Shown piece by piece: positions 1,630 to 8,531 of a stretch of DNA of 49,454 bases. Numbering within the stretch: position 1 is the first letter of the stretch; each line of letters begins with the position of its first letter. Position numbers and translations under genes: made by a program. The notes under the pieces are model-generated. The model was not told where the DNA came from. It ran no database searches and was given only the letters and a program-made list of their open reading frames with translations. Origin of the DNA: Nostoc sp. PA-18-2419 (lineage in GTDB: Bacteria; Cyanobacteriota; Cyanobacteriia; Cyanobacteriales; Nostocaceae); contig NZ_SZNH01000004.1 of the NCBI RefSeq assembly GCF_005869855.1, forward strand, positions 149,433-198,886. Reading direction: 5' to 3'.

Positions 1630-4134
1630 CTACTCTTCTCGATTCTTCTCCTGAAGCAGCGATCGCCAATCTTCAATTGCTTTTTCTGTCCATAGCCAAT
1701 TTTTAGCTAATTTATCCACCTGAAAATTCACGCGATCAGACTTCATCACCATTTGTCGCAACTTGATCGCTTCATTCATATATTGTGGTTGTTTAGCACT
1801 AGATTGACCAAGTGCAGATTTATACAGTCCCAAAGCTAAACCAGCATAGGAAGTTAAAGCATCCTGAGGTACTGGTGTCTTTATAGATGCTGTGGTCGAG
1901 GCTGTATTCTGCGGTTTGAGAGCTAAATTTAAAGCCTTGAACCAAGAATCATTAGCTCGATTCAAATTACCTTCTGTGTAGTAAGCAAATCCTAAAGCGT
2001 TATTATACAATAGCGAATCTGGTTTAGCTTTGGCAGCAGTTTCCCAGTAACGACGGGCATCATCAACGCTATAGTTATTGTCTCCAGTTTGGATTGATTG
2101 CCATGCTAATCGTCCCTTTAAAAAGTTGACGGATGGATCGTTAGCTTGCTTGTTTGTAACTAGTTTCAAAGCAGTTTCAGCTGCCGCAAAAGCACCACGA
2201 TTGAGTAATTCTTCTACAGCAAATAACCCACCTTGTAAATCACCTTGGCTCAATTTTTCAGTAGCGGTGGCGGTGACAATTCCAGTTGGTGCTGTTTCTA
2301 AATCGATATTCGGTTGCTTTTGGATGGGTAAAGACTCGGTGGGAATTGCTGGTATCCTCGACAGAGTTGCCTGGGGTCGATTTTGCCACCAATTTAAACC
2401 GATGGCAATTGCGATCGCACTGATTCCTGCAATCCCAACAATTGGCCATAGCTTGCGCCGCCGAGTCCGATTTCTAGATGGAGATGAAATTGAGTGCGAT
2501 CGCGAATCAGAATTTTCCCAATGTCTTTCTAGGTTCCCAACAGTTTCAGGAGGCGGTGCTGAGACTTCTCCCCACAAATCTGTTTCCTCAAAGGAGGAAG
2601 TCATTTCTTCTGAAACCTGCCTATTTGGAAGACTATTTTCCTGAATTTGTTGCTCGATTTCCGTCGAGGCTTTTTGCTCATCCAGCCGCCGAAACAAATC
2701 CGAAACCATCGCCGAATCTTCTGCATAGCTTGGGTCATCATACTCAATTTCATCAACGAGATCGCCCCAAGTATCCTCACCTAGCCAATCCAAGCTAGAA
2801 GACTCACGTGCCATATCAGCAGGAATCATTTCCTCAATTCCTAAACCCATCTCGGTATCGTCTGTCATACCAGCATACATAGTATTGGGAATTGCCCCCA
2901 AAGGCGAACTATACTGGTTGAGCAACTCGCGACTTTCAGGTAAACCAGTTTCGTAGCTCAAAAAACCGTCAAATTCCGGCTGAAGATACAAAATTGGTAA
3001 TGCCCAGTACATTTGGTGAGAACCATAGGCAGAAATTAATCCTTGGCGCACCCGACTGACACATAAATCTACTGGATATCCCTGACTCAAGTTGCGGTAA
3101 AATAATTGCGTCAGTGTCAGTGCCACTTCATCAGGAATCCGCTCTGACATTGCCAAAACACTGGCAATTCCTCGTTTGACAAGACTTTCTGCCAGGTTGC
3201 GTTCGCCTATATCTCCAGCAGATCCAAACGCAGCTGTATACGCTCCTAAGCAGGAATTAAACACTGCCATCTGGATGTTATTGTTGACTAGCAAACCTGC
3301 TAAATCATCTCCAGTGAGAATTTCCGTTAACCCAGTTCTGCGACTGGCAAGATAAATTTCTCCGCCATTTGCGCCTAAGTTACTATGACCAGAGTAGTGG
3401 AGAACGTGGTATCTGCCTTGCTCTAAAGCTTGAGTCAGTTCTTCCCGTCCTGGTTGGTCTAAAACAGTGAGTTCAATTTCTGGAAGGTGATTGCTATTTT
3501 CAGCCAATCGTGGTATTTTTCGCCTAAGTTCCGCTTGGAGTTTGATAGCTTCGTGTTTGAGTAGGTCTAGCCGGACTTGATCTAAAGGCGAAGCAATTAC
3601 CATCAATACTTTTACACTACTTTCTTCTAGTGGTGTGGGCATATTTGGCGATCGCAAACGAGAAACCCCCAAAATTCCACTTTGGAAGCGAGAAAAAGCC
3701 ACATAAGGACCGGTGGCTAGAGGGCGATCGCCTGCGTGCATCACTTCCCAAGGCAAACGAGCTAACCTGGTGTCTTTCAGCCCCAAGCGTAAGCGGAGTA
3801 CTTGCTGGTGGTTCTGGGCAATACCTTGGGCAGTAATCCAGCTATCTCTGAGAGTGCCTTGAAATAGTGCATTATATAATTGTTGACCCAACGCCACCAA
3901 GTTAACAGAGTTTCTGGCAATATCGCTTTCCCGCCCACTAGAGGCAAATGCATCTCCCTGTAACACGGACTTCAACGGGTCATTCATCAAATGCCCAGCA
4001 GCCATCAACCAATCAGCTACAGGCCAAGTCACCAATTCTTCTGCCAATGGCACCCCAGGCGCGACTTGTTCCGTCCGCACCAAGTAGTCGTTTTGCCCTA
4101 CTGGGGTTACGGATATATGGAATTCCTGGGTCAC
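1630..4134 (-). CDS. hetF: HetF-type CHAT-domain caspase-like protease with TPR-like C-terminus
   Basis: The 834-residue product has a CHAT (caspase-like) domain at about residues 165-395: the His motif HYSGHS (His250, with His246 nearby) and the Cys motif VFNSCLGA (Cys295). An acidic, low-complexity linker follows (about 420-560), then a basic-flanked membrane segment near 562-583, then a TPR-like helical region from about 615 to 800. HetF of heterocystous cyanobacteria has this length and layout and is required for heterocyst differentiation and control of HetR. The identification is strengthened by the NsiR1-type array immediately upstream, the arrangement known in Nostoc PCC 7120. The start is a GTG at 4132-4134 preceded by AGGAG at five-base spacing. 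NsiR1 unit 1 is transcribed toward the array, antisense to the presumed hetF leader, so sRNA control of translation is likely. Confidence 0.88.
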   Translation of the reverse strand: MTQEFHISVTPVGQNDYLVRTEQVAPGVPLAEELVTWPVADWLMAAGHLMNDPLKSVLQGDAFASSGRESDIARNSVNLVALGQQLYNALFQGTLRDSWITAQGIAQNHQQVLRLRLGLKDTRLARLPWEVMHAGDRPLATGPYVAFSRFQSGILGVSRLRSPNMPTPLEESSVKVLMVIASPLDQVRLDLLKHEAIKLQAELRRKIPRLAENSNHLPEIELTVLDQPGREELTQALEQGRYHVLHYSGHSNLGANGGEIYLASRRTGLTEILTGDDLAGLLVNNNIQMAVFNSCLGAYTAAFGSAGDIGERNLAESLVKRGIASVLAMSERIPDEVALTLTQLFYRNLSQGYPVDLCVSRVRQGLISAYGSHQMYWALPILYLQPEFDGFLSYETGLPESRELLNQYSSPLGAIPNTMYAGMTDDTEMGLGIEEMIPADMARESSSLDWLGEDTWGDLVDEIEYDDPSYAEDSAMVSDLFRRLDEQKASTEIEQQIQENSLPNRQVSEEMTSSFEETDLWGEVSAPPPETVGNLERHWENSDSRSHSISSPSRNRTRRRKLWPIVGIAGISAIAIAIGLNWWQNRPQATLSRIPAIPTESLPIQKQPNIDLETAPTGIVTATATEKLSQGDLQGGLFAVEELLNRGAFAAAETALKLVTNKQANDPSVNFLKGRLAWQSIQTGDNNYSVDDARRYWETAAKAKPDSLLYNNALGFAYYTEGNLNRANDSWFKALNLALKPQNTASTTASIKTPVPQDALTSYAGLALGLYKSALGQSSAKQPQYMNEAIKLRQMVMKSDRVNFQVDKLAKNWLWTEKAIEDWRSLLQEKNREE

Positions 4135-4279
4135 AGCTTCTCCTGTTCGCCTCCTAAATTCGGTTTGAAACGTGAAAGTTTCAAGTAGATTTTTTGCTCC
4201 CTCTGATAACTTAGATGCATCCCACCCCTGAATGTTTCTAATTTTTAATTGTTCTGCTTTTTGTACCTCTACAACTTTA

Positions 4280-4285
4280 TCCGGA
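4280..4285 (+). promoter_or_regulatory. DIF-class promoter motif of NsiR1-like unit 1
   Basis: TCCGGA, 38 bases before the TAGATGC that opens the RNA-like unit. TCCGGA in the -35 region is the motif linked to HetR-dependent, heterocyst-specific transcription starts in Nostoc PCC 7120. Confidence 0.7.
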
Positions 4286-4317
4286 TCGGATTACTTGGGT
4301 CTAGAACACTTTATTGG

Positions 4318-4375
4318 TAGATGCACCTTGATCTTCAACTCCCCTAGTTGGCTAACACCCACTGGGGGTTTTTTT
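4318..4375 (+). ncRNA. nsiR1: NsiR1-like sRNA, unit 1
   Basis: About 58 nt from TAGATGC to the end of the T-run. It contains CTCCCCTAGTTGGC and CACTGGGGG, which can pair (CCCC/GGGG extended by AGT/ACT), followed by seven Ts: a Rho-independent terminator. Its middle differs from the other units (TTGATCTTCAACT in place of CTGATAACT). It lies divergently upstream of hetF, within about 190 bases of the hetF start, so its transcript would be antisense to a hetF leader that begins upstream of it. Confidence 0.8.
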
Positions 4376-4658
4376 ATTTTGGCAAACAACAGCAACCTCC
4401 GATCTAGTAATCCGAAATGATTCGGAAAAAATCTATTACCTTTTGTCTGTTGCCTGTTGGCTTGGCATCACCACTCAGCTCACAATTCAAATACAGTTGC
4501 TAGATCAAGTTTGTATAAATACTTATAGTAAAGGCTGATGCCCAAACACTGCGACACTCTGCGCGGGGCGTTTTGAATTATAAGTAATTAAACGAACTCG
4601 AGATAACGCAGACATTCTCTATTAGAAAATAGTGCTTAACTTAAGAATGCTTGATTGG

Positions 4659-4715
4659 CAGATGGATGAGCCTCAGTCTTTAACTCCCCTAATTCAGTTA
4701 ATATCCACTATTACA
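4659..4715 (+). ncRNA. degenerate NsiR1-like unit 2
   Basis: Aligned to the other units by ATTGGCAGATG, AACTCCCCTAATTC and TAATATCCACT, but there is no TCCGGA at the expected position and no GGGGG plus T-run, so both promoter and terminator look lost. Probably a decayed copy. Confidence 0.5.
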
Positions 4716-4845
4716 GCACGGCAAAAGCATAGACTAACATCTAAATTAATCAGACTTGGGACTTAAGCCTCCGATCTCAAAGGTAGGAAAACTTGTGCCA
4801 CTAATTTTTTAACACAAAACAACAATCAACTTTCTCCCAAATCTA

Positions 4846-4851
4846 TCCGGA
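4846..4851 (+). promoter_or_regulatory. DIF-class promoter motif of unit 3
   Basis: TCCGGA exactly 38 bases before the unit's TAGATGC, with an AT-rich TTTAAT at a plausible -10 position. Confidence 0.7.
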
Positions 4852-4883
4852 GCATAGTGGTTAAACTTAGAACATTTAATTGG

Positions 4884-4942
4884 TAGATGCACCCTGATAA
4901 CTAGCTCCCCTGGTCGGCTAATAGCTACTGGGGGTTTTTTTT
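4884..4942 (+). ncRNA. nsiR1: NsiR1-like sRNA, unit 3
   Basis: About 59 nt: TAGATGCACCCTGATAACT, then CTCCCCTGGTCGGC, then ACTGGGGG followed by eight Ts. Promoter motif, 5' half and terminator are all intact. Confidence 0.8.
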
Positions 4943-5085
4943 ACTCATTACACACTTATTTTTCAGACAGCCACTAATACTGCAAGGCGGAATCTAAACT
5001 TCCAAATCAATACAGCATAAGCATTTCATTGATTTGGAATTGGTTATTTATTTCCGCCATGCTGTAGTAGTCATTTAATAATTGG

Positions 5086-5144
5086 TAGGTTTTAACTGAT
5101 AACTAACCCCTCTGATTGGCTAACACCTGTTGAGAATTTTTTTT
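5086..5144 (+). ncRNA. partly degenerate NsiR1-like unit 4
   Basis: Keeps ATTGGTAG, CTGATAACTAACCCC, TTGGCTAACACC and a T-run, but TAGATGCACC has become TAGGTTTTAA, the terminator stem is weak (CCCCTCTG against TGTTGAGAA), and there is no TCCGGA 38 bases upstream; a TCCGCC lies 33 bases upstream instead. Confidence 0.5.
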
Positions 5145-5186
5145 CTGGTGAACAAACAGCAATAACCTCAACTTGTGCATAATTTA

Positions 5187-5192
5187 TCCGGT
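5187..5192 (+). promoter_or_regulatory. DIF-class promoter motif of unit 5 (TCCGGT variant)
   Basis: TCCGGT at the same 38-base spacing, with one change in the last position compared with units 1, 3, 6 and 7. Confidence 0.6.
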
Positions 5193-5224
5193 GGATAGCC
5201 ATTAACTTGAGAAAAAATAATTGG

Positions 5225-5283
5225 TAGATGCACCCTGATAACTCAACTCCCCTAGTTGGCTAATACCCACTGGGGGGTTTTTT
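5225..5283 (+). ncRNA. nsiR1: NsiR1-like sRNA, unit 5
   Basis: About 59 nt with intact 5' half (TAGATGCACCCTGATAACTC), CTCCCCTAGTTGGC and CACTGGGGGG followed by six Ts. Confidence 0.8.
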
Positions 5284-5322
5284 CTAATTGGGATCGCCAT
5301 CAACTCTGATTTTGAGCATTTT

Positions 5323-5328
5323 TCCGGA
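5323..5328 (+). promoter_or_regulatory. DIF-class promoter motif of unit 6
   Basis: TCCGGA exactly 38 bases before the unit's TAGATGC. Confidence 0.7.
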
Positions 5329-5360
5329 AGATACTGGCTGCCCCGAGAAGACATTGTTAG

Positions 5361-5417
5361 TAGATGCACCCTGATAACTCACTCCCCTAGTAGGTTAACA
5401 CCAACTGGGGTTTTTTT
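5361..5417 (+). ncRNA. nsiR1: NsiR1-like sRNA, unit 6
   Basis: About 57 nt: TAGATGCACCCTGATAACTC, CTCCCCTAGTAGG, CAACTGGGG and seven Ts. The upstream ATTGGTAG box is altered to TTGTTAGTAG. Confidence 0.8.
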
Positions 5418-5451
5418 ATTTTAAAAAATAACTGACCTTTGTACAAATTTA

Positions 5452-5457
5452 TCCGGA
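5452..5457 (+). promoter_or_regulatory. DIF-class promoter motif of unit 7
   Basis: TCCGGA exactly 38 bases before the unit's TAGATGC, embedded in AAATTTATCCGGAG, shared with units 3 and 5 in part. Confidence 0.7.
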
Positions 5458-5489
5458 GTATGGTGTTCAACCTCAGAACATTTAATTGG

Positions 5490-5547
5490 TAGATGCACCC
5501 TGATAACTAACTCCCCTGGTTGGGCTAACACCCACTGGGGGTTTTTT
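5490..5547 (+). ncRNA. nsiR1: NsiR1-like sRNA, unit 7
   Basis: About 58 nt: TAGATGCACCCTGATAACT, CTCCCCTGGTTGGGC, CACTGGGGG and six Ts. Last recognisable unit of the array. Confidence 0.8.
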
Positions 5548-6027
5548 CTACTCTAGACGCGTAGCAGCTTGTCGTTAGACATCACCAGTCTCCATAACCT
5601 GCCCACATAGCTATAATGCACCTTATTACTACTGCTAATAGAGCTTGAGTATTTCCTAATTGCCAGCACAGAACAAAACCCAGTCACTCTAATTCCTGAA
5701 CCGCTTTGCTTTTATTGTCGGCGAAAAACGCGACTTCAAAATGATTGCTATGATATTTAATCACATTCTTAAGTTTTTTTCTAGATTCCTACTTTTCGAT
5801 TTTTGGACTGCTGCTTTCTCAAAAATTGGCTGGGTACGCGGCAAACAGGGAGTGCTGAGTCCGGAGCCTTGCTGGAGACGTTTGGGTTGCTTTGGTTAAG
5901 AGTTATTATCTCCCCCTCTTCCCTGATCTCCTCAAGCGCTTTTTGTTGACATTAATAACATGCTATGTGGTATATTTCATGGCGTTATGCTAGGATGTCT
6001 AGCCTAAAACCAAAGAGTTGCCAACCG
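5548..6027. other. spacer after the NsiR1 array, with one possible small ORF
   Basis: No gene is certain. A 52-codon frame runs from ATG 5741 to TAA 5897-5899 and begins MIAMIFNHILKFFSRFLLF; I do not recognise it and see no ribosome site. A further TCCGGA occurs at 5860-5865, possibly by chance. A candidate promoter for the next gene is TTGACA at 5946-5951 with TATATT at 5971-5976 (19-base spacing, so not ideal). Confidence 0.4.
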
Positions 6028-6680: not shown

Positions 6681-8531
6681 TTATGCTGTTTTTTCTTCGT
6701 TTTGCAATGCTAAACGAGCAAGTCCATAACAAAGTATGGCGTTGGCGATGAGGAATAGGCGTGCTAAGTGAACATTTCCGAATCCCCAAACTGCCGGGTC
6801 ATAAATAGCACTTACCATCAAGCAGGCTGCTACTCCTAATGTTGAACCAATAGCAAACCATTTCCAACTAGGATGTCCTAACAGTAATGCCATTAACACA
6901 ATTGGAATCAATACGCTAGCAAACACGGGATTTAATGCACCAGTTCCCTGGAGGGTATTACCGAGTTCCGGAATTGAACTGCCTAAAACCCTGAAAGGCC
7001 ACTGGGGAAGATCAAAGATATAGATTCCTTTAAGGAAGAATAACCCTGAACTGCCAGCAATTAAACCACTAAATAAAGACCAACTCCAAGTGAAGGGGAA
7101 GTAAACCCGTAGAAACCAAGCCAGCAGGTAGGAACCAACTACCATTAAAATCTTAGGTAACAGTGCTATTGCACCGCCATCAATCCAAAAGCCGGGATTT
7201 AAATAGCCGCTATCCCGTAACCACCGGAAGAAATCTTGAAAACTGATTTGCCCTTCAACAGCCAGTTTGACTGCTGCTTCTGCATTGAGTTGTCCAGCGC
7301 CATAATAATTCAAACCATCATCTTGGATAACTCGTGCTGACTGTTTGAGGACTTTTAAAACTTCATCTGGTTCTTTAATACCAGTAGCTTTGATTAATGC
7401 CGCAACACCAGCAATGTGGGGAGAAGCCATACTTGTACCTTGGAAGCCAAGAAATACGCCTTGGCCATTTTCATCGATAGTTTCTTGCAGAATCTTACCA
7501 GCTTCACTACCACCAGGAGCAGAGATATCTACCCCTGCACCAAAGTTAGAATAGGGTGCTTTTTCGCCGTCAGGCCCAATTGCGGAAACGCCAATGACAT
7601 GAGGATAGCGGGCTGGATAGCTTGCCCCATTGGTGCTTTCATTGCCAGCTGCGGCAACTATAACTACACCTTTTCTATGGGCATAGTCGATCGCATCTTT
7701 CATCAATTTACTTTCACCACCACCACCCAAGCTCATATTAATCACATCTGCGCCTTTCTCAGCTGCAAATTTAATCGCTTCGGCAATATCGGCAACAGTA
7801 CCGCCACCGTATGAATTCAGTACCTTTAGCGGCATCAGACTGGCTTCATAAGCAATCCCAGCTACACCATATTTATTATTTGTAGCTTGAGCAATGGTTC
7901 CAGCAACGTGAGTACCATGACCGTTATCGTCATCAGCTTGTTCTCGGTCGTTAACAAAATCATAGCCTTTGACGAATTTGGTTTCATACAAGTCGCGCAC
8001 CTTAGTAATCCCGGTGTCAATTACTGCAACAGTGATGCCGCTGCCTTTGGTTTGACTCCATGCGCCTTCAATCCCGATTTTGTGCAAGTTCCACTGCTTG
8101 CTGTAATATTGGTCATTGGGGCCAGTTAATGAAACACTGACCTCATCATTTTCTTCGGGTCGCAAAAATTCTCCTAGCCAAGCGGGTTGACCTGGTTGTG
8201 GAATCTTTCTGTAGATATAATTTGGCTCTATAAATTCTGTAGTTTGGGCAAACTGAGATTTTTTCAGTTCTTGGAGTCGCTGGCGATCGCCCTTGATAAT
8301 ATACACATTATCCTTCGCCGAAAACTTGTTGTCTAATTGGGGTGTAACGTTATATTGTTTGGCGAGCGCTTGGAGATTCTGTTGCACCACAACTGAGGGA
8401 ATATCTTCCCGAAAATCAAGCAAAATTGTCTCAAACTCGCCTTTAGCTGCCAATCCCTGGAAATTCAGGAAACCAAATACGGCAGCTCCCAACCCAATGA
8501 CAAACAAGCACAATAATATAAGTTTTCTCAT
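6681..8531 (-). CDS. membrane-anchored subtilisin-like serine protease (S8 family)
   Basis: 616 residues. An N-terminal hydrophobic segment (about 3-23) acts as signal or anchor; a short prodomain follows. The S8 catalytic domain runs from about 140 to 425 with Asp172 (VAVIDTGIT), His205 (NGHGTHVAGTIA), oxyanion Asn297 (AAAGNES) and Ser367 (GTSMASPHIAGVAAL). Unusually, about 170 residues of hydrophobic sequence follow (from about 445) with roughly five membrane spans. The protein is therefore an integral membrane protease, probably with its active domain in the periplasm. All catalytic residues are intact. It stands alone between the small convergent gene and the divergent hypothetical gene at 8649. 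Confidence 0.92.
   Translation of the reverse strand: MRKLILLCLFVIGLGAAVFGFLNFQGLAAKGEFETILLDFREDIPSVVVQQNLQALAKQYNVTPQLDNKFSAKDNVYIIKGDRQRLQELKKSQFAQTTEFIEPNYIYRKIPQPGQPAWLGEFLRPEENDEVSVSLTGPNDQYYSKQWNLHKIGIEGAWSQTKGSGITVAVIDTGITKVRDLYETKFVKGYDFVNDREQADDDNGHGTHVAGTIAQATNNKYGVAGIAYEASLMPLKVLNSYGGGTVADIAEAIKFAAEKGADVINMSLGGGGESKLMKDAIDYAHRKGVVIVAAAGNESTNGASYPARYPHVIGVSAIGPDGEKAPYSNFGAGVDISAPGGSEAGKILQETIDENGQGVFLGFQGTSMASPHIAGVAALIKATGIKEPDEVLKVLKQSARVIQDDGLNYYGAGQLNAEAAVKLAVEGQISFQDFFRWLRDSGYLNPGFWIDGGAIALLPKILMVVGSYLLAWFLRVYFPFTWSWSLFSGLIAGSSGLFFLKGIYIFDLPQWPFRVLGSSIPELGNTLQGTGALNPVFASVLIPIVLMALLLGHPSWKWFAIGSTLGVAACLMVSAIYDPAVWGFGNVHLARLFLIANAILCYGLARLALQNEEKTA

Follow-up and report, generated by a model that had tools for sequence, protein, structure and literature searches.

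The window, by which we mean the whole analysed stretch of 49,454 nucleotides from Nostoc sp. PA-18-2419, contains hetF and, upstream of it on the opposite strand, a series of seven direct-repeat units of the small RNA NsiR1 (Rfam RF02399), five of them intact and two decayed, which spans 4280-5549 on the + strand (Table 1). The seeds of the array lie 183-1355 bp upstream of hetF. Two further reading frames were noted in the window: one at 531-1259 encodes COR-B and just the end of COR-A, resembling the tail of a Roco protein with no Roc domain in frame, and one at 6681-8531 encodes a subtilase fused to a membrane-type DUF5942.

Table 1. Features of the hetF-NsiR1 locus (window positions) and related units at other loci
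Feature	Position	Strand	Evidence
hetF, 834 aa	1630..4134	-	NF045509 CellDiv_HetF 1465 bits, cut-off 1200; CHAT domain
Conserved hetF-leader site GATGCATCTAAGTTATCAGAGGG, complementary to NsiR1 seed and CCCTGATAAC	4199..4221	-	GCATCTA conservation and pairing
DIF1 motif, unit 1	4280..4285	+	TCCGGA, pattern search
Unit 1, NsiR1.1-like, probably antisense to hetF leader	4315..4376	+	67.7 bits; TAGATGCACCTTGATCTTCAAC signature
Unit 2, decayed, without motif or terminator	4656..4720	+	promoter-plus-RNA profile
DIF1 motif, unit 3	4846..4851	+	TCCGGA, pattern search
Unit 3, intact	4881..4942	+	69.1 bits
Unit 4, decayed: promoter and seed gone, RNA body partly retained	5083..5144	+	23.3 bits, below cut-off
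DIF1 motif, unit 5	5187..5192	+	TCCGGT, pattern search
Unit 5, intact	5222..5284	+	69.0 bits
DIF1 motif, unit 6	5323..5328	+	TCCGGA, pattern search
Unit 6, intact	5358..5419	+	63.2 bits
DIF1 motif, unit 7	5452..5457	+	TCCGGA, pattern search
Unit 7, intact	5487..5549	+	69.4 bits
Solo NsiR1-type RNA between cobM and lgt	L136 3027-2977 (G000:C46:364026-363976)		51.5 bits, over 39 cut-off; DIF1 at 37 bp
Three tandem seed units, promoter core GGATTAATAAATAG type, other terminators	L137 2800-3162 (G000:C5)	-	best 32.9 bits
TAGATGCACCCTGATGATC and terminator, DIF1-less seed unit	L138 2965 (G000:C31)	-	sequence inspection

An earlier note on this DNA had read the repeats as a seven-unit NsiR1-type array with a TCCGGA promoter motif, pointing to the multi-copy NsiR1 beside hetF in PCC 7120, and had proposed a covariance-model scan. 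This reading was borne out by the Rfam scores, the NF045509 match and the motif spacing. Five units matched RF02399 at 63.2-69.4 bits, well over the gathering score of 39, with E values of about 1e-10 to 1e-11; unit 4 stayed under the cut-off, and unit 2, with no Rfam match, was recovered at 18.2 bits by a promoter-plus-RNA profile. The promoter motif was indeed locked in place: TCCGGA (TCCGGT in unit 5) starts exactly 38 bp before the start of TAGATGC in five of the seven units. A search of the window for TCCGGW-N28-36-TAGATGC returned these five matches, against a mean of 0.02 and a maximum of 1 in 100 shuffles. Units 2 and 4 had been described as lacking the motif and having weak or no terminators, and we found the same. 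Their best TCCGGA-like sites 33-43 bp 5' of the seed carry three and two mismatches, respectively; a hairpin with a T-run was sought in unit 2 and none was found, and unit 4 retains the T-run behind a weak stem (-4.2 kcal/mol).

The stem and T-run ending the five intact units were recovered by the Rfam model and by RNA folding, although a simple terminator scan of 4100-5700 gave 0 sites (1.2 expected from shuffles); the stems contain bulges and mismatches. A sigma-70 promoter scan was uninformative (3 sites versus 4.1 in shuffles), and an AGAACA-type -10 core could be discerned by eye in units 1, 3 and 7 and less clearly in units 5 and 6. The five motif-bearing units are probably expressed. 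Starts had been placed near 4318, 4884, 5225, 5361 and 5490; the choice of units stands and the positions shift, as transcription is expected to begin about 3 nt 5' of TAGATGC, near 4315, 4881, 5222, 5358 and 5487, because DIF1 sits near -35, and the Rfam model begins there too.

For comparison we scanned named genomes for HetF and analysed 81 upstream regions, namely those of the best 80 of 146 loci and that of the window; 20 of them, at contig ends, are shorter than 3 kb. At least one unit was present in 76 of the 81. The comparison of unit number suggested by the earlier note gave 0-12 intact units in the 61 regions of at least 3 kb, with a median of 6 against 5 in the window. Where both TCCGGA and TAGATGC were exact in this set (best 80 of 146 loci plus the window), the spacing was 38 in 304 units, 37 in 36 and 39 in 15. 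Within 5 kb upstream of hetF no array unit was found at L060, L068, L070, L074 and L084; the antisense unit would therefore be dispensable there. The genomes of these five loci still hold 10-14 NsiR1 matches including the solo RNA described below, the array having moved or split. Array-type units also occur as two distant groups per genome in G002 (C83, 62242-63035 and 98776-99474) and G003 (C1, 2.559 Mb and 5.512 Mb), a layout that would fit an array prone to rearrangement.

The first unit differs from the remainder. Of the 73 first units whose seed is exact (best 80 of 146 loci plus the window), 72 read TAGATGCACCTT (CACCTT) and 47 are exactly TAGATGCACCTTGATCTTCAAC. The other exact-seed units of this set (n=370) have C at the diagnostic base in ~97% of cases, giving TAGATGCACCCT (CACCCT) and usually CACCCTGATAAC; the unit-1 sequence also appears in at least four non-first units of the same loci. 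In 64 of the 76 unit-bearing loci, again from the best 80 of 146 plus the window, the distance between the first unit and the hetF start is 175-195 nt. In the window, the position and the divergent sequence of unit 1 match the first-copy type of NsiR1, with the hetF start taken from the open reading frame and not from a mapped transcript. By sequence, then, unit 1 is a type separate from the remaining units, and the two types form a two-state sequence code that is conserved among the named heterocyst formers.

In Nostoc (Anabaena) PCC 7120 the hetF start site is reported at -256, inside nsiR1.2 (PMC8406250), which puts unit 1 of that strain within the hetF leader; the same is likely in this genome. 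Altering the -10 box of nsiR1.1 had little effect on the fluorescence of a hetF-promoter reporter, according to the available part of the same report (PMC8406250). The leader contains a further candidate site. Among all 7-mers in the final 130 nt of hetF leaders, GCATCTA, the complement of UAGAUGC, was present at the most loci (72 of 81; best 80 of 146 plus the window), followed by AGGAGGC (71 of the same 81). Unit 7 was predicted to pair with this site at -23.2 kcal/mol, a value that 1 of 500 shuffles equalled or undercut; pairing by the solo RNA (35 of 500) and by unit 1 (62 of 500) was not clearly better than shuffles. GCATCTA persists at -64 in four of the five array-less leaders, the fifth having GCATCT at -126. 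Six outgroup hetF leaders contained no GCATCT in the last 130 nt, their sole site being within the antisense unit. With the chance of a given 7-mer in 130 nt at ~3%, these data are suggestive of a seed target.

Candidate targets in trans were sought in the HetP family. This genome has four HetP-family genes, one of which (contig C73, L171) carries a complementary site. Duplexfold, which ignores accessibility, predicted pairing of the C73 hetP-like start region with units 3 and 7 at -24.1 and -23.8 kcal/mol, lower than for any of 26 background start regions; the values for units 5 and 6 were reached by one of the 26. Unit 1 gave just -17.8 kcal/mol, still below all 26 backgrounds, and the solo RNA -20.4 kcal/mol. 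Among 19 HetP genes examined, AUCAGG(G)UUAGCUAUG precedes the start in L171, L215 and L217; L213 belongs to the same HetP branch, and its start placement is uncertain. The outgroup gene L204, which lacks the site, still gave a predicted pairing of -20.8 kcal/mol. Of the four HetP genes here, one has the site, and a single HetP gene was seen in four of seven same-genus relatives searched; the C73 target is therefore not universal. The better pairing of unit 7 than of unit 1 follows the order published for NsiR1.4 and NsiR1.1 of PCC 7120 on alr3234 (PMC9045159), of which L171 may be a counterpart.

We consider it very probable that the locus is a functional NsiR1 array with HetR-linked units, an antisense unit 1 and trans-acting others. 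Under HetR-linked control, each of the five intact units, with its predicted DIF1 (-35) promoter and terminator, would produce an RNA of ~60 nt in differentiating cells. Unit 1 would be read across the hetF leader, and its antisense RNA would repress hetF in cis. The other intact units, which share the seed and differ downstream, would act in trans; their best predicted targets here are the C73 hetP-like start region and the further complementary stretch of the hetF leader. The anatomy, spacing, conservation and separate type of unit 1 come from the present comparison, as do the predicted pairings. HetR dependence, cell-type expression and repression are carried over from PCC 7120, in which activation of all 12 nsiR1 copies depends on HetR and NtcA (PMC8406250) and the multi-copy array, its DIF1 promoters and the antisense first copy have been published (PMC9045159, PMC8406250). 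As far as these reports describe it, the PCC 7120 array also consists of tandem ~60-nt units beside and opposite hetF, each with DIF1, the first being divergent and antisense to the leader (PMC9045159, PMC8406250), and its non-first copies likewise show the better pairing with the start region of a hetP-like gene (PMC9045159). In contrast to PCC 7120, the window has seven units, five of them intact, instead of 12, no run of identical copies, and a decayed unit 2 that lies ~340 bp from unit 1 (PMC9045159, PMC8406250). Nodularia spumigena CCY9414 has a comparable tandem array upstream of hetF with a different number of units, 12 repeats (PMC3610870).

The array is accompanied elsewhere in the genome by related RNAs (Table 1). 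The solo RNA between cobM and lgt, counted by hand at ~43 nt before the U-tract, was found at up to three mismatches in 25 nt in 213 of 217 family genomes, with one copy per positive genome; it was missing from G109 (72% complete), G081 (54%), G191 (84%) and G185 (100%). In this genome and the first 30 listed, cobM always lies upstream in divergent orientation (31 of 31), and lgt follows downstream in convergent orientation in 22; in the other nine lgt was not found, the fetched stretch often being short. Mean identity over the first 26 nt was 97.7% for the solo RNA, a figure inflated by the choice of these 31 genomes by motif, compared with 88.3% for array units. The three units on contig C5 have one exact DIF1 and two with one mismatch, all at a spacing of 38. 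A C5-class pattern found in 166 of 217 genomes at two mismatches also matched array and solo units and is not a count of the C5 class. Related units elsewhere often have TCCTGA instead of TCCGGA. The C31 unit is perhaps an NsiR1-like RNA with another promoter. The C5 units (L137), the C31 RNA (L138) and the unit of genome G387 (L253) did not reach the RF02399 cut-off and share the seed; the C5 and G387 units also share the promoter motif.

Beyond the family, the occurrence of such units was compared with that of HetR. The pattern TCCGGW-N29-34-TAGATGCACC was present in 230 and HetR (PF03574) in 236 of 388 genomes of the order, own family included. Both were found in 223 genomes, HetR alone in 13, the pattern alone in seven and neither in 145 (Fisher p 8e-81, kinship ignored). 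Of the seven pattern-only genomes, G532, G409 and G459 are 81-89% complete and G358, G253, G275 and G387 97-100% complete; among the latter four, G253, G275 and G387 carry a terminator-bearing unit. Terminators followed 36 of 38 units from 30 loci examined, as against 29 of 900 random positions. Within the order, G330 had five pattern matches together with HetR, and G472 had neither. In a class-wide sample that includes other orders, the pattern occurred in 145 of 291 genomes.

Among 33 genomes of other families, most of them represented by one locus, 17 (families f2, f3, f4, f15, f18 and f33) have a unit adjacent to cobM, 16 of these at no more than ~300 bp and G437 at ~900 bp. Six (f5 and f15) have one adjacent to hetF, at ~160-480 bp and divergent from the gene as here. 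Families f2, f3, f4, f5, f15, f18 and f33 are presumably without heterocysts. The cobM-lgt unit is repeated in G406 (five units) and G219 (four, two with one motif mismatch). Two 19-kb stretches from f15 genomes with neither hetF nor cobM in the stretch hold 17 (L270, G374) and 14 units (L271, G303). These distributions suggest that the NsiR1-type RNA family goes with HetR and not with heterocysts, and that this HetR-linked family is older than heterocysts.

Several other explanations of the repeats deserve consideration. TCCGGA is short, and clustering of a short palindrome with repeats could in principle arise by chance; the probability is negligible given that none of the 100 shuffles reached five matches and that five Rfam matches have E values of the order given above. 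A recent, strain-specific decay of units 2 and 4, as part of an ongoing graded loss, would fit their lack of motif and seed, yet we regard it as highly improbable. The order intact-decayed-intact-decayed-intact-intact-intact is common to 8 of 60 other regions of at least 3 kb (from the best 80 of 146), and the same decayed sequences are recognisable in relatives, more changed in L016 and L018; the decay is thus old and inherited. In the eight loci sharing the order, no intact unit 2 or 4 was seen. Moreover, the 'graded decay' of the earlier note gave way to a mostly all-or-none picture: of 555 unit hits in the best 80 of 146 loci plus the window, six at region ends were dropped, and among the 549 full-length units 416 had motif, seed and terminator, 81 none and 52 a mixture. 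Motif and terminator co-occurred (two-way counts 427, 12, 22 and 88 of the same 549), an association that is partly built in, since the profile was made from exact units and under-counts decayed copies, and related species are non-independent. Units 2 and 4 are therefore best described as old copies that are probably silent. Of the 47 second units that have decayed (best 80 of 146 loci plus the window), 27 carry at the expected place of the DIF box a shared 13-mer, AAATARTGCTTAA, which may be kept for another role, perhaps as part of the hetF promoter, since the PCC 7120 hetF start lies in nsiR1.2; a search for that promoter in decayed second units of this set returned the shared 13-mer and nothing further.

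Two other readings concern the start of the units. Since TAGATGCACC occurs at a near-fixed distance from TCCGGA in every class seen, it could serve DIF1 promoters as a promoter element or initial-transcribed signal instead of being an RNA seed. This appears unlikely: seven of the ten TCCGGW-TAGATGC matches in this genome are small-RNA units, the other three being TCCGGT sites with no hairpin and T-run visible within 75 nt, and a copy of the seed on C31 stands without a DIF motif. An alignment of 58 DIF promoters from -120 to +40 is described, in the part of the report available, as conserved at -35 and at about -10/start, with no downstream motif named there (PMC6133370). Alternatively, the units could encode a near-leaderless micropeptide, MHPDN (ATG CAC CCT GAT AAC TAA). 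ATGCAC is invariant and many units have a stop within a few codons, but we give this idea very little credence. The classes differ at second codon positions (CCT/CTT, GAT/GGT) with the third fixed, the opposite of coding; the early stop is missing in some homologues, and no ribosome-binding site is visible.

Several related systems are described in the literature. RNA162 of Limnospira indica PCC 8005 is a 57-nt NsiR1-like RNA in a strain with hetR, as here; this strain has no heterocysts, and the accessible text leaves array, promoter spacing and locus of RNA162 undescribed (PMC8400943). The DIF1 promoters of hetR, patS, patX and PsynDIF have TCCGGA ~35 bp before the start and are heterocyst-specific and HetR/HetZ-linked, as is predicted for the units here; they differ in driving proteins or reporters, and UAGAUGCACC is unmentioned in the portions consulted (PMC7377430, PMC6133370). 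NsiR8 and NsiR9 of PCC 7120 are HetR-dependent small RNAs like NsiR1, but of 171 and 122 nt, and the study describing them had a lower limit of 45 nt, compared with ~43 nt for the solo RNA (PMC4734099). The literature thus already covers NsiR1 and its array, DIF1 and the antisense nature of the first copy, the targets hetF and alr3234 (PMC9045159, PMC8406250) and the Limnospira RNA (PMC8400943). A non-exhaustive search of the literature on NsiR1 and HetR small RNAs did not return the cobM-lgt solo RNA, its near-universality, the co-occurrence with HetR or the second hetF-leader site; the solo RNA may already be catalogued elsewhere.

Taken on its own, the array adds one more species to a known system. 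We lean slightly towards a wider view in which NsiR1 belongs, as one branch, to an ancient family of tiny HetR-linked RNAs. The family would be defined by the 5' seed UAGAUGCACC together with a DIF1 promoter and would have two old loci, one adjacent to hetF and one between cobM and lgt. Heterocyst formers would have amplified the hetF branch and split off unit 1, and the shared seed would pair with conserved targets such as GCAUCUA in the hetF leader. This opens the question of the role of HetR in filamentous cyanobacteria without heterocysts, for which the solo RNA provides a compact and nearly invariant handle.
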